A DNA stretch of 64,000 nt from Polaromonas sp. 39-63-25 (GTDB lineage: Bacteria; Pseudomonadota; Gammaproteobacteria; Burkholderiales; Burkholderiaceae_C): assembly GCF_002278925.1 (NCBI RefSeq), contig NZ_NCJH01000001.1, positions 186,001 to 250,000 of the forward strand, in the 5' to 3' direction. Shown here in pieces: positions 22,955 to 27,617 of this stretch (position 1 is the stretch's first letter; every line of letters begins with the position of its first letter). Under the pieces are notes generated by a model. That model did no database searches. It was not told where the DNA came from and saw only the letters and a list, made by a program, of their open reading frames with translations. A program made the position numbers and the translations under genes.

Positions 22955-24700
22955 CTAACGAACGAATGCCTGGACGCCCACCAGCACCACGATGATCCCT
23001 GCCAGAATCAGGGAGACGCCCTTCCAGAACAGCAGGGGATTGCGCTCCAGCAAGGGCGGGCGCGTCTTGTCCAGAAACGCCCTGTTGGGGTGCCGCAGGT
23101 CGTATAAAAACTCCGACAACTCGTCGTAACGCCGGGCAGGGTCCGGATGCAGGGCCTTGCGCAGCACGCCGTCTATCCAGGCGGGTATCTCGCGGTCGTC
23201 GTGCAGCGCGGAGTCGTAGCGCAGCCTGTTTTGTGCGGCCCGGGTTCTGCATTTGGCCACTTCGGCGCCGTAAGGCAGTCGCCCGGTGAGCATCTGGTAG
23301 GTGATGACGCCCAGTGAGAAGATGTCCGAACGTGTGGTGCCACCTTCGCCCAGAAAATATTCGGGTGCGGCGTACTGGGCCGTGCCCAGCACGGGGTCCG
23401 GCTCGCCGGGTGCAGCCGCCTCCGTGAGGCTGGCCACGCGGGTGGACCCGAAATCGATGATTTTCACCGTGCCGGTCCGGTCGATCATGATGTTGTCCGG
23501 CCGCAGGTCCTGGTGCAGCATCTCCAGCCGGTGAAAGGCGCGCAGCCCTTTGGCAATCTGCTCGACCACGCCGCGCACGGCTTCCAGCTCGGGCCTGGGG
23601 TTGTCGATCATCCACTGGCTCAGGGTCTGCCCGTCAATGTATTCGGTGGCCACGTAAACGTAGTGGCGCTTTCGGGTCGGTACATAGGGCTTGAGCACAT
23701 GTGCATTGTTGATGCGCCGGGCAATCCACTCTTCGGTCAGAAACCTTTCCAGGTAGGCCGGGTCGGCCTGCAGGTCGATCGACGGCGTTTTCAGGATGAC
23801 CTGGGCGCCTGTTTCACCGTCCACCGCCAGGTAGATGTGGCTGCGGCTGCTGCCATGCACTTCGCGGATGATGGTGTAGCCGTCAAATGCCGTCCGTGCA
23901 TCCAGGATGGGCGGTAGCGGCAGGCTGGACAGCTGCTGGAGCACCTCGCCGGCGTGCTGGCGGGGCAAGGCATCGACCCGCACGATCTGGGCCGTCAGGT
24001 TGTCGGTGCTGCCCTGCTGGAAGGCTTTCTCGACGAGGGATCTGGCGGCCGTCTCCAGCCCGTCGGGTTCACCGGCACAGATGTGGATGATGGCAGCCAT
24101 GTCGTGCTCGCTGACATGTTCGTACACGCCGTCTGTGGCCAGCAGAAAAATGTCGCCCTGCTCAACCTGCTGGGTCTGGTAGTCGATTTCCAGCTGCGGT
24201 TTGATGCCAAGCGCGCGGCCCAGATAGCTCTGGCCCTGCGAGATCCACACGCGGTGGTCGCTGGTCAGTTGCTCCAGCGCCCTGCCGCGCAGGCGGTAAA
24301 TGCGTGAATCCCCCACATGGAAAATATGCGCGGTGGTGGACTTGATGACCATGGCACTCAGCGTGCACACATAGCCCTTGTCCTTGTCGTAGCGGTACTG
24401 GCTTTTCTGCGTCTGCGCATGCAGCCAGGAGTTAGTGGCGCTCAGGATCCGCTCGGCCGACGTCTTGACGGACCAGGCCTCCGAGGTGCAGTAATAGTCT
24501 TCGAGGAAACCCGTGACGGCGTACTGGCTGGCCACGTCGCTGACCGCGCTGCTGCTGATGCCGTCGGCCAGCGCAACGGCAATGCCCTTGGCGCTCAGTT
24601 GCGGCTCTTTCGGTACGTAGATGCCGTGGAAATCCTGGTTGATTTCCTTGCGGCCCTTGTCCGAATACTGACCTGCCGATATCTTCAGTTCACTGGACAT
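22955..24700 (-). CDS. PP2C phosphatase-Ser/Thr kinase fusion protein
   Basis: A 581-residue bifunctional signalling protein. The N-terminal PP2C domain (about 8-240) has ALADGISSS, FHVGDSRIYRL, LLATDGVYEHV and STDNLTA, the metal-binding motifs. The kinase domain (about 272-525) has the ATP-lysine VILKTPS, catalytic LHQDLRPDN (Q replaces the usual R of HRD), IIDFGSTR and the activation-end GTAQYAAPEYF. A membrane helix (about 556-577) ends the protein, so both domains face the cytoplasm. It lies downstream of the formate/nitrite-type channel gene, 63 bp away across a terminator. In pseudomonads the same type of fusion sits in nitrate-assimilation clusters. Confidence 0.92.
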   Translation of the reverse strand: MSSELKISAGQYSDKGRKEINQDFHGIYVPKEPQLSAKGIAVALADGISSSAVSDVASQYAVTGFLEDYYCTSEAWSVKTSAERILSATNSWLHAQTQKSQYRYDKDKGYVCTLSAMVIKSTTAHIFHVGDSRIYRLRGRALEQLTSDHRVWISQGQSYLGRALGIKPQLEIDYQTQQVEQGDIFLLATDGVYEHVSEHDMAAIIHICAGEPDGLETAARSLVEKAFQQGSTDNLTAQIVRVDALPRQHAGEVLQQLSSLPLPPILDARTAFDGYTIIREVHGSSRSHIYLAVDGETGAQVILKTPSIDLQADPAYLERFLTEEWIARRINNAHVLKPYVPTRKRHYVYVATEYIDGQTLSQWMIDNPRPELEAVRGVVEQIAKGLRAFHRLEMLHQDLRPDNIMIDRTGTVKIIDFGSTRVASLTEAAAPGEPDPVLGTAQYAAPEYFLGEGGTTRSDIFSLGVITYQMLTGRLPYGAEVAKCRTRAAQNRLRYDSALHDDREIPAWIDGVLRKALHPDPARRYDELSEFLYDLRHPNRAFLDKTRPPLLERNPLLFWKGVSLILAGIIVVLVGVQAFVR

Positions 24701-24763: not shown

Positions 24764-25576
24764 TTATTTGAAGGAACGTGTCGGTCCGGTTTTGATGTGC
24801 GTGGCATACAGCGTCAGGCCGGTGAAGGCCAGGCCGCCCACCAGGTTGCCCAGCACCGTCGGGATTTCGTTCCAGATCAGGTAGTCCATGATGGTGAACT
24901 TCGCGCCCAGCAACAGTCCGGACGGGAACAGGAACATGTTCACGATGGAGTGCTCGAACACCATGTAGAAGAACAGCATGATGGGCATCCACATCGCGAT
25001 CACCTTGCCGCTGACCTGGGTGGAGATCATCGCCCCCACCACGCCGGCCGACACCATCCAGTTGCAGAGCATGCCGCGCACGAACAGTGTGAGCATGCCG
25101 TTGGCGCCATGCGCCTGGTAACCCAGCGTGCGGTTCTCGCCGACCACGCCTATGGCGACGCCCACCGCGCTGGGCGGTGTGGAAAAGCCGTTGGTGACGT
25201 AGATCGCCATCATCACCGCCACCGTGAAAGCGCCCGCGAAGTTGCCGACGAACACCAGGCCCCAGTTGCGCAGCACGCCCTTGAGCGTGACGCCCGGGCG
25301 CTTGTCGATCAGTGCCAGCGGGCACAGCACGAACACGCCGGTCAGCAGGTCGAAGCCGAACAGGTAGAGCATGACGAAGCCCACCGGGAACAGCACCGCA
25401 CCCAGCAGCGGCTGGCCGGTCTGGACGTTGATGGTGACGGCGAACCAGGCTGCCAGCGCCAGGATGGCACCGGCCATGTAGGCCCGGATCACGGTGTCGC
25501 GGGTGGACATGAAGATTTTGGATTCACCGGCATCCACCATCTTCGTCACAAACTCTGAAGGCACTAAATAAGACAT
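24764..25576 (-). CDS. Formate/nitrite transporter (FNT) family channel
   Basis: A 270-residue pentameric-channel subunit with six membrane helices. The start at 25576 has AAGGA 8 bp upstream; the frame remains open to 25636 but that part lies in the terminator. The N-terminus MSYLVPSEFVTKMVDAGESK and the middle GFDLLTGVFVLCP, WGLVFVGNFAGAF and FEHSIVNMFLFPSGLLLGA are FNT motifs, including the central histidine in FEHSIVNM. Formate, nitrite or another small anion may be carried; the sigma-54-like promoter and the linked kinase favour nitrite. Confidence 0.9.
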   Translation of the reverse strand: MSYLVPSEFVTKMVDAGESKIFMSTRDTVIRAYMAGAILALAAWFAVTINVQTGQPLLGAVLFPVGFVMLYLFGFDLLTGVFVLCPLALIDKRPGVTLKGVLRNWGLVFVGNFAGAFTVAVMMAIYVTNGFSTPPSAVGVAIGVVGENRTLGYQAHGANGMLTLFVRGMLCNWMVSAGVVGAMISTQVSGKVIAMWMPIMLFFYMVFEHSIVNMFLFPSGLLLGAKFTIMDYLIWNEIPTVLGNLVGGLAFTGLTLYATHIKTGPTRSFK

Positions 25577-25614
25577 GCAATTTCCTTGGTCCGTAGTAAC
25601 AAGACAAACAAGAC

Positions 25615-25665
25615 AAAAAAAAACGTCCACTTCCAATGCCTCAAAAGATGAGACAGAAGTGGACG
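25615..25665 (-). terminator. Leader terminator (attenuator) before the FNT channel gene
   Basis: On the minus strand CGTCCACTTC (25665-25656) pairs perfectly with GAAGTGGACG (25633-25624), an inner CTCA/TGAG pairing lies in the loop, and nine T residues follow at once (25623-25615). This is a strong intrinsic terminator 39 bp upstream of the start codon, with no minus-strand gene before it, so it would stop the channel transcript in its own leader. Confidence 0.8.
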
Positions 25666-25686
25666 CCGTTATCCGTTTGAATCAGT

Positions 25687-25705
25687 GCGCAGCGACTTGC
25701 CGCGC
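25687..25705 (-). promoter_or_regulatory. Leader hairpin 2
   Basis: GCGCGGC pairs with GCTGCGC (seven pairs, one G-T) around the loop AAGTC. It lies 22 bp before the leader terminator. Confidence 0.6.
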
Positions 25706-25710
25706 CTTGA

Positions 25711-25730
25711 TCAGGCCGCTGTTAGCCTGA
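25711..25730 (-). promoter_or_regulatory. Leader hairpin 1
   Basis: TCAGGC pairs with GCCTGA around an 8-base loop TAACAGCG, which a closing T-G pair would reduce to six bases. It starts about 15 bases after the sigma-54-like promoter, near the expected 5' end of the RNA. Confidence 0.6.
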
Positions 25731-25744
25731 GTCACCCAGGAACA

Positions 25745-25760
25745 AGCACATACTGTGCCA
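25745..25760 (-). promoter_or_regulatory. Sigma-54-type promoter for the FNT channel gene
   Basis: On the minus strand TGGCAC-N5-GTGCT matches the -24/-12 consensus TGGCAC-N5-TTGCW with one mismatch, with the invariant GG and GC exactly ten bases apart. Transcription would begin near 25735 and give a leader of about 160 bases. Confidence 0.65.
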
Positions 25761-26024
25761 CCAAAATGAAGCGTGGCGCCGGCCAATCCGCCCACCGGCG
25801 GGGAATCCATACACCGCGTTGCCCCAAGGCAGTGCGTTCCTGCCATCCGTTAATCACTTTGGTGCGATCTGATGGATTGCTGCAACCCCGGCGGTTCAGT
25901 GAGCGGGAGGTGGGGACGTGCGGTGCGGCGGCAACACCGGGCGTTCTTCAATAAAAGTTTCATGGCGCTGACATGTTGGTCCAAAACAGTACGAGCTTCT
26001 ACGTTTTACTTCTGGAGAATCTTC

Positions 26025-27617
26025 ATGGATCGCCGCACATTCTTGAATTCAAGCACCGTTTTGGGAACCTCGGCCCTGGCGCTGCCCCGCCTCGCCCGGG
26101 CGCAGACCGCCCCCGCCGTCATCACACGAGACGCCATGCGGCCCCAGATGGCTCATGGCATTCAAAGCGGCGATCCCAAGTCCGACGGCGCCATCATCTG
26201 GACCCGTAGCGACCGGCCTGCGCGCCTTTGGCTGGAGTGGGCAACGACCGCCAGTTTTGCCAACGCCACGCGGGTGCGTGGGCCCTACCTGATGGGCGAC
26301 ACCGACTTCACCGGTCGTGTGGACCTGGCGGGCCTGCCAGCCGGCCAGGAAATTTTTTACCGGGTGGTGCTGCAGGACCTGCACAACGAGCGTGTGCTGT
26401 CTGAACCCATGGCCGGCCACCTGCGCCTGCCCGCCGGCGCAGGAGCCAAGGCTGCGCGCGACGTGCGTTTTACCTGGAGCGGCGACACGGCGGGGCAAGG
26501 CTGGGGCATCAACGAGGCCTGGGGCGGCATGAAAATCTACGAGCAGATGCGCAAGGTCAGCCCTGACTTTTTCCTGCATTGCGGCGACACGATTTACGCC
26601 GATGGCCCGATCCAGGCCCAGGTCAAACTCGCTGACGGCTCCCTGTGGAACAACGTGGTCACCGAAGAGGTCAGCAAGGTGGCAGAAACACTCAATGAGT
26701 ACCGTGGCCGCTATCGCTACAACCTGATGGACGCCAATGTGCGCCGCATGGCGGCGGAAGTGCCGCAGATCTGGCAATGGGACGACCACGAGGTGGTCAA
26801 CAACTGGTCGGACTCCAAAGACCTCGCTGCCGACAAGCGTTACACCGAAAAGAACGTGCCCCTGCTGGTGGCGCGCGCCACCAAAGCCTTTCATGAATTT
26901 GCGCCCCTGCGCCGCACCGCCGACGTGGAAAGCGAGCGTGTGTACCGTCATCTGCCGCAGGGCCCCCTACTGGACATGTTTGTGGTCGACATGCGCAGCT
27001 ACCGTGGCCCCAACACCCACAATCTGCAGACCAGCGAGACCGAAGAAAGCGCCTTCATGGGCCGCCCCCAGATTGCCTGGCTGCTGGACGGCCTCAAGCG
27101 TTCGAAGTCAGTCTGGAAAGTGATTGCCGCCGACATGCCCATCAGCCTGCATGTGGCTGATGGCAAAGACGCCGACGGGCGCGCCCGCTGGGAAGCCGGT
27201 GCCAACGGCGACGACGGTGCCCCCATGGGCCGCGAAGTTGAAATTGCGCGCCTGCTGAGGGAGATCAAACGCGCCGGCATCAAGAATGTGGTGTGGCTGA
27301 CTGCCGATGTGCACTACACCGCCGCGCATTATTTTGATCCGGCCAAGGCCAGGATCAATGACTTCTCGCCGTTTTGGGAATTTGTGTCGGGGCCGCTCAA
27401 CGCCGGTGGTTTCGGGCCCAACAAAACCGACGCGACCTTTGGCATGCAGGTGATGTACCAGAAAGCCCCGAACGAAGTGAATGCACCACCCACCAACGGC
27501 ATGCAGTTTTTTGGTCAGGTGGACATCGACGCCAAAACCCGAGCCATGACAGTCACATTGAAAGATCTGGCCGGCGCGTCGCTCTACACCAAGACACTGG
27601 CACCGCAGCGAAGCTGA
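26025..27617 (+). CDS. phoD: Tat-exported alkaline phosphatase D (PhoD family)
   Basis: A 530-residue phosphodiesterase/phosphomonoesterase of the PhoD family, acting in the periplasm or outside the cell. The start at 26025 has CTGGAGA 9 bp upstream and yields a twin-arginine signal MDRRTFLNSS..ALALPRLARA; a longer frame begins upstream without this logic. Metal-binding motifs are visible in FTWSGDTAGQGWG, FFLHCGDTIYADGP, WQWDDHEVVNNW and WLTADVHYTAAHYF. PhoD enzymes use calcium/iron and release phosphate under starvation. It stands alone, divergent from the channel gene. Confidence 0.93.
   Translation: MDRRTFLNSSTVLGTSALALPRLARAQTAPAVITRDAMRPQMAHGIQSGDPKSDGAIIWTRSDRPARLWLEWATTASFANATRVRGPYLMGDTDFTGRVDLAGLPAGQEIFYRVVLQDLHNERVLSEPMAGHLRLPAGAGAKAARDVRFTWSGDTAGQGWGINEAWGGMKIYEQMRKVSPDFFLHCGDTIYADGPIQAQVKLADGSLWNNVVTEEVSKVAETLNEYRGRYRYNLMDANVRRMAAEVPQIWQWDDHEVVNNWSDSKDLAADKRYTEKNVPLLVARATKAFHEFAPLRRTADVESERVYRHLPQGPLLDMFVVDMRSYRGPNTHNLQTSETEESAFMGRPQIAWLLDGLKRSKSVWKVIAADMPISLHVADGKDADGRARWEAGANGDDGAPMGREVEIARLLREIKRAGIKNVVWLTADVHYTAAHYFDPAKARINDFSPFWEFVSGPLNAGGFGPNKTDATFGMQVMYQKAPNEVNAPPTNGMQFFGQVDIDAKTRAMTVTLKDLAGASLYTKTLAPQRS

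Follow-up and report, generated by a model that had tools for sequence, protein, structure and literature searches.

The FNT channel gene and its leader

The window, by which we mean the whole 64,000-nucleotide stretch of DNA analysed (positions 186001–250000 of contig C52 in the 54-contig genome G000, Polaromonas sp. 39-63-25), carries on its minus strand a gene for an FNT channel followed by a gene for a fused PP2C phosphatase and Ser/Thr kinase. The channel also matches TIGR00790 with a score under the cut-off of that model, its substrate is predicted from its genomic company to be nitrite, and its nearest named relative in our scan is that of Polaromonas sp. CF318 (96% identity). In 100 of 103 related loci, a homologue of the PP2C-kinase fusion comes after the FNT gene, so the two proteins very likely work together. 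The features of the locus are as follows:

22955–24700, minus strand: fused PP2C phosphatase and Ser/Thr kinase (PF13672 and PF00069; 581 amino acids), the gene after the FNT gene
24764–25576, minus strand: FNT channel gene (PF01226, E 1.4e-60; 270 amino acids; ATG at 25576)
25615–25623, minus strand: run of nine T, directly after the terminator
25624–25665, minus strand: intrinsic terminator stem CGTCCACTTC ... GAAGTGGACG, with an inner hairpin within
25661–25674, minus strand: P2 antiterminator hairpin, GGAT-AACGGC-GTCC, its 3′ arm common to the terminator stem
25687–25705, minus strand: linker hairpin, GCGCGGC-AAGTC-GCTGCGC, with a five-base loop
25711–25730, minus strand: P1, the 5′ hairpin, TCAGGCT-AACAGC-GGCCTGA, its loop with A1 present and A replacing G4
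25745–25760, minus strand: sigma-54-type promoter TGGCACAGTATGTGCT, GG-N10-GC, at a conserved place
25821–25835, minus strand: possible NtrC-type enhancer site GCACTGCCTTGGGGC, 7 of 8 to GCAC-N7-GTGC
26025–27617, plus strand: PhoD-like phosphatase gene (PF09423), divergent from the FNT leader

The preliminary description of this DNA had placed a sigma-54-like promoter, two hairpins and an intrinsic terminator ahead of the channel gene, and had proposed that antitermination of the NasR/NasT (ANTAR) type acts there. The terminator is present on the minus strand as described, with a perfect 10-bp stem (CGTCCACTTC/GAAGTGGACG, 25665–25656 paired with 25633–25624) and nine T residues, the last of which lies 38 bases before the ATG. 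No gene seen upstream needs this terminator, as had also been noted, the PhoD-like phosphatase gene pointing away from the leader. The hairpins at 25711–25730 and 25687–25705 were both found, but only the first is one of the two hairpins of an ANTAR leader. The second, rejected as an ANTAR site for its five-base loop, is a linker element that may bring P1 and P2 together, P2 being the hairpin that had been overlooked.

The leader displays (i) two tandem small hairpins with six-base loops, P1 and P2, (ii) A1 and G4 in the P2 loop (AACGGC), and (iii) a P2 3′ arm that overlaps the 5′ arm of an intrinsic terminator, all of which are hallmarks of ANTAR leaders. The same two bases were not found together in the P1 loop, AACAGC, which has A1 and no G4. 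The 3′ arm of P2 doubles as the base of the terminator stem, so only one of the two structures can form at a time. A script that sought a hexaloop hairpin with A1 and G4, the 3′ part of which overlaps the 5′ arm of a terminator, reached the overlap of the window leader in 2 of 3000 shuffles of that leader and found such an arrangement in 13 of 103 FNT upstream regions compared to 1 of 6180 dinucleotide shuffles. Terminators were located with a custom script, since the window terminator is absent from the list of a stock scan, probably because the loops allowed there span 3–8 bases.

The leader RNA (25577–25745) folds to −69.2 kcal/mol against a shuffle mean of −46.3 kcal/mol (z −5.7), and none of 200 shuffles folds as well. 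Folded stepwise, the growing RNA contains P2 at 76, 80, 90 and 100 nt, and at 110 and 119 nt it contains the terminator; termination yields a fold 12 kcal/mol better than the best one that retains P2. P1 and P2 are separated by 36 nt, 7 of which are unpaired with the linker hairpin folded.

Judged by the sigma-54 consensus that we take to apply, TGGCACAGTATGTGCT (25760–25745) carries the −24 GG and −12 GC element, spaced as GG-N10-GC, of a sigma-54/NtrC-type promoter. The motif alone is at chance level genome-wide, TGGCACN6TGC occurring 96 times compared to 93 for a reversed control, and was dropped as stand-alone evidence. The site gains weight from its position and conservation: a looser sigma-54 pattern is present in 67 of 103 FNT upstream regions and in 176 of 4120 shuffles. 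Transcription presumably starts near 25734, by a spacing rule that we assume. A candidate NtrC site, GCACTGCCTTGGGGC, lies 60 bp upstream of the sigma-54 site; the dyad consensus GCAC-N7-GTGC is assumed here from E. coli glnA sites, and 7 of 100 shuffles of the region equal the candidate, which is weak alone and only suggestive. NtrC-like dyads scoring at least 7 of 8 were found upstream of 17 of 32 leaders, with 3.3 expected from shuffles; the 32 are the 38 leaders described below less one duplicate and five leaders without a recognised sigma-54 site. The genome encodes both RpoN (PF04552) and NtrC (TIGR01818, over its cut-off).

A NasR-type regulator and related leaders across the order

The search of the genome gave one ANTAR protein, of 430 residues and with NIT and ANTAR domains (PF08376, the nitrate-sensing NIT domain, E 2.5e-58; PF03861, E 3.5e-21). 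Since the sole ANTAR protein found carries a NIT domain, the regulator is of the NasR type; the NIT-ANTAR protein expected for a NasR regulon is present, and NasT, for which the preliminary description had suggested the genome be checked, was set aside. The nasR-like gene heads a nitrate cluster of nrtA (PF13379), nrtB (TIGR01183), nrtCD (TIGR01184), a response regulator gene and nirB (TIGR02374). Behind it, the nrtA leader repeats the order of the FNT leader, promoter-P1-P2-terminator, with a sigma-54 site TGGCACGGTTACTGC, P1 GGGCC-AACGAC-GGTCC, P2 GGAC-AACGGC-GTCC and a terminator. Upstream of nirB (L037:4860–4985, minus strand, C34) there is a sigma-54 site and two hairpins with AACGAC hexaloops, GGGCGC-AACGAC-GCGCCC and CGCAT-AACGAC-GTGCG. 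No clear intrinsic terminator was seen by eye in this region, which is among the genome matches of neither model R1 nor model R2 (below), and nirB may be an ANTAR target that functions without a terminator. In two of the 103 FNT loci (L130, L141), the leader region is immediately preceded by a nasR-like gene.

The covariance model of the leader that had been suggested was built in three versions, the E-values of all of which are rough. Model R1, made from six FNT leaders and the nrtA leader and applied at E 0.01 or better, matches 42 of the 399 genomes of the order Burkholderiales. An ANTAR protein is encoded by 40 of these 42 genomes and by 148 of the other 357 (Fisher 2.5e-12). Among the matches listed (one per genome and two for G000; some genomes have more), the R1 match lies within 500 bases downstream of a same-strand ANTAR gene in 26 of 42 genomes, a count that takes in G000 with its own training leader. 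In three further genomes the ANTAR gene is 1.5–2.4 kb upstream, again among the matches listed, and in the remaining 13 of 42 the ANTAR genes listed, a listing that is incomplete, include none upstream on the strand of the listed match. Except via the G000 leader, this adjacency was not given to the model. By genome content, an ANTAR match is present in 21 of 22 FNT-bearing genomes compared to 167 of 377 others.

Model R2 was made from 18 of the 20 nrtA leaders at hand and no FNT leader, although these 18 had themselves been found with a model containing the window leader. In the window, R2 finds the leader at E 9.8e-8, with the next best match at 0.15; in the genome, the window leader is the second-best place (E 7.4e-6), behind the nrtA leader. 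A further ANTAR hallmark, homology to leaders that adjoin ANTAR genes, is thereby present. Model R3, which is FNT-rich and from which the window leader was left out, finds it at E 1.6e-15.

We compared 38 leaders, which are the matches at E 1e-4 or better in the loci searched, less two antisense matches of 40 and with the identical pair L113 and L182 both counted. Twelve rows precede an FNT gene, the channel frame of which starts 28–57 bases after the leader match, and 20 precede an nrtA homologue. By eye, other leaders precede MFS-type transporters (L178, L179, L181), a molybdopterin nitrate reductase (L187) and a protein without an assigned family (L176), and L174 lies at a contig end. Pseudomonas L112 and L122 are outside this set, as are weaker matches. 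In these two FNT loci, a second match to the nrtA-type model was observed far upstream (L112:593–702, L122:1137–1259), and several units there may share control.

Conservation of the hairpins and the terminator in relatives, on which the preliminary description had staked its reading, holds. Promoter, P1, P2 and terminator are kept in the close relatives L003, L004 and L043, in the Ramlibacter MAG L044 and in others, and RNAalifold proposed P1 and the terminator unprompted from seven leaders. In the same seven, P1 has six cells changed on both sides, a figure that none of 500 shuffles attains for P1 plus P2; the covarying P1/P2 pairs number two, which 204 of 500 shuffles also attain. P2 and the terminator vary very little or by wobble changes, the terminator covariation score being reached by 99 of 500 shuffles. 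Covariation support, as judged from these alignments, is modest.

Under strict P1 rules (a stem of at least 4, A1 and G4), 33 of the 103 FNT regions pass, and the window falls outside this set because of its P1 loop. A strict hexaloop hairpin stands 20–75 nt past the sigma-54 site in 33 of the 67 FNT regions that have such a site and in 1 of 4120 shuffles; the other 34 of the 67 have none. L101, L102, L103, L123, L126 and L128 have the sigma-54 site and no such hairpin, and of the 22 FNT-bearing genomes only that of L126 (G355) lacks an ANTAR match. P2 with a terminator is found in 0 of 13 regions in which the FNT gene lies directly behind nirB/nirD compared to 13 of 90 others, a contrast that fits the ANTAR reading with too few loci to carry weight, in a test that misses operons such as L124 and L129, where the upstream frame is NirD-like by eye. 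The custom script found no terminator in most alphaproteobacterial FNT loci (Bradyrhizobium and others) and terminator-like sites in two of them, L106 and L107. A distinct arrangement was observed upstream of the FNT start in L046, L048, L073, L076, L082 and L092, where a hairpin with an AATGAC or AATGGC hexaloop follows a sigma-54 site by 27–28 bases and the custom script found no intrinsic terminator; these loci are perhaps under ANTAR control of another kind.

Departures from the ANTAR consensus and alternative explanations

With loop positions placed by model alignment, A1 and G4 are present in the P1 loop of 37 of the 38 sense leaders, the window (AACAGC) being the exception. L142, a weaker match (E 0.0015) outside the 38, is by eye also off consensus. 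Both of its loops depart (AATCGC, AACAGT), no T-run terminator was seen by eye upstream of its FNT gene, and it may be an ANTAR leader in decay. The importance of A1 and G4 was first recognised for NasR (PMC3369936), and a change at the same place in the P1 loop of eutP, G32A, lowered induction and binding (PMC3369931). The absence from the window P1 of a G4 that matters for both NasR and EutV was counted against NasR control.

Closure of both window loops by U-G was likewise counted against it, as NasR selected a C-G closing pair in SELEX (PMC7496416). Among 10 distinct FNT leaders, 8 close the P2 loop with U-G, as does 1 of the 26 other leaders (Fisher 1.3e-5, with no correction for common ancestry); 25 of these 26, which are mostly nrtA leaders, have C-G. 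From the 38, a duplicate was left out, as was a leader that lacks a strict P2. Together, the loss of G4 from P1 and the U-G closure may raise the induction threshold.

The linker was also counted against NasR control: a P1–P2 linker of 14 nt broke control by EutV, the eut leaders having 5–12 nt (PMC3369931), and that of the window is 36 nt, though 7 bases are unpaired after folding. Further points counted against it are the low covariation of P2 and the terminator, the 34 FNT regions that have a sigma-54 site and no strict hexaloop hairpin, and the 13 genomes in which no upstream ANTAR gene is listed. Over 37 leaders (the 38 less the one without a strict P2, and with the identical L113 and L182 both included), the linker has a median of 34 nt and is at most 14 nt long in six. 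Folding energies of −4 kcal/mol or better were obtained for 28 of the 31 longer linkers (median z −2.9 for long linkers against mononucleotide shuffles), and folding leaves at most 14 unpaired bases in 20 and more in 11. In 8 of the 37 (L172, L173, L174, L176, L178, L179, L180, L181), an additional hexaloop hairpin with A1 and G4 lies in the linker, which suggests that three-hairpin ANTAR leaders exist.

One alternative is that the leader has decayed: the ANTAR fold would be inherited, the G4-to-A change in P1 would uncouple it from NasR, and the terminator would merely lower expression. That the window alone among the 38 leaders lacks the P1 G4, and that the equivalent G32A change in eutP cut induction and binding (PMC3369931), favours such decay. 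However, the P1 stem, the P2 loop (AACGGC), the terminator and the T run are all intact, and NasR retains binding to a lone P2 hairpin, at about 12 compared to 1 micromolar (PMC7496416). We regard decay as unlikely.

That the leader mainly serves to produce a short non-coding RNA (about 110 nt) for the titration of NasR, a role compatible with attenuation, appears very improbable. ANTAR-decoy RNAs titrate EutV, and here, too, the ANTAR hairpins are flanked by their own promoter and terminator, but termination consumes P2 and leaves only one off-consensus P1, and in the 12 FNT rows the channel frame follows closely, 28–57 bases past the leader match. The strong structure alone would also suit an RNA with no relation to ANTAR, such as a riboswitch. 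No Rfam family, however, reaches its gathering score in the 64-kb window, the 601 bases of the leader region give five weak, unrelated Rfam matches (E up to 5), and the ANTAR hallmarks and the linkage explain the leader, which makes an unrelated RNA extremely unlikely. Chance hairpins behind a sigma-54 promoter, for which the background frequency of the sigma-54 motif alone would speak, are hardly credible in the face of the shuffle controls, the conservation and the model searches, among which R2, built without FNT leaders, finds the window leader.

Proposed control of the channel-kinase unit

The proposal of sigma-54 transcription combined with ANTAR-type antitermination, perhaps by nitrate or nitrite, is supported, computationally, by the anatomy and conservation of the leader, the architecture shared with nrtA and the NasR-type protein. 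That the FNT leader descends from ANTAR leaders and resembles them is very probable. That it is an ANTAR-type attenuator under working control by the NasR-like protein of this genome is probable, a lower degree of confidence that reflects decay as an alternative, since decay excludes working control. The P1 loop, failing the sequence hallmark, lowers confidence in this control and not in descent. By homology, the leader would be a divergent relative of ANTAR leaders and not a textbook member.

Antitermination of the NasR and EutV type is established for Klebsiella oxytoca NasR and Enterococcus faecalis EutV (PMC3369931, PMC7496416, PMC3369936, PMC5424462). With the K. oxytoca NasR/nasF system, as it is described, the window shares an NIT-ANTAR protein, P1 and P2 hexaloop hairpins, the overlap of P2 with a terminator and nitrogen-regulated transcription. 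In contrast to nasF, it has a P1 without G4, a 36-nt linker that holds a hairpin, and a further leader before a separate channel-kinase unit. The nas/nos leaders of Azotobacter, Pseudomonas putida, Paracoccus and Bradyrhizobium also serve ANTAR antitermination of nitrate genes, but through the two-component NasS-NasT system, whereas the ANTAR protein of the window genome is of the one-component NasR type. The E. faecalis EutV/eut leaders share the dual hairpin, the exclusion of the terminator by P2 and A1/G4 loops, in the window that of P2; unlike the window leader, they answer to ethanolamine, have linkers of 5–12 nt and, in the portions of their descriptions available to us, come with no mention of a sigma-54 promoter.

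We propose the following model for the control of the channel-kinase unit. Under nitrogen limitation, NtrC and sigma-54 would start transcription near 25734, and the nascent RNA would fold P1 at once, then the linker hairpin and then P2. When NasR is absent, the longer terminator stem, as the computed folding indicates, displaces P2, and the polymerase would stop at the T run. A NasR dimer loaded with nitrate or nitrite would bind the P1 and P2 loops and keep P2 closed; with the terminator so blocked, the polymerase would read into the genes of the channel and the kinase/phosphatase. In this genome, nrtA and probably also nirB would answer to the same NasR protein, and production of the channel and kinase would be largely confined to nitrogen scarcity in the presence of nitrate or nitrite.

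In the text available, Ramesh et al. describe ANTAR hits ahead of nitrate and nitrite transporters and do not name this FNT gene, although their supplementary tables may list FNT leaders. The Bradyrhizobium NasT study (PMC6759348) names nosR, nirA, coxS, narK and bjgb leaders, and the words kinase, FNT and nitrite transporter are absent from its main text. Among titles and the opening lines of abstracts, no paper on a unit of a channel and a fused phosphatase-kinase was found. The channel and phosphatase-kinase unit is now tied to a predicted nitrate-sensing RNA control, and the models given here find such leaders across the order. The linker hairpin lets one ask whether the spacing rule of EutV is relaxed, and the P1 loop change, together with the split between U-G and C-G closure, raises the question of whether loop sequence grades the targets of one ANTAR protein. 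It is conceivable, though doubtful, that the channel-kinase leaders are tuned-down NasR targets, by way of U-G closure of P2 and, in the window, loss of the P1 G4. If so, nitrate uptake and reduction would be the first to respond to the one NasR, the channel and kinase following only once it is well loaded, and an order in time or dose would be encoded in RNA loop sequences.
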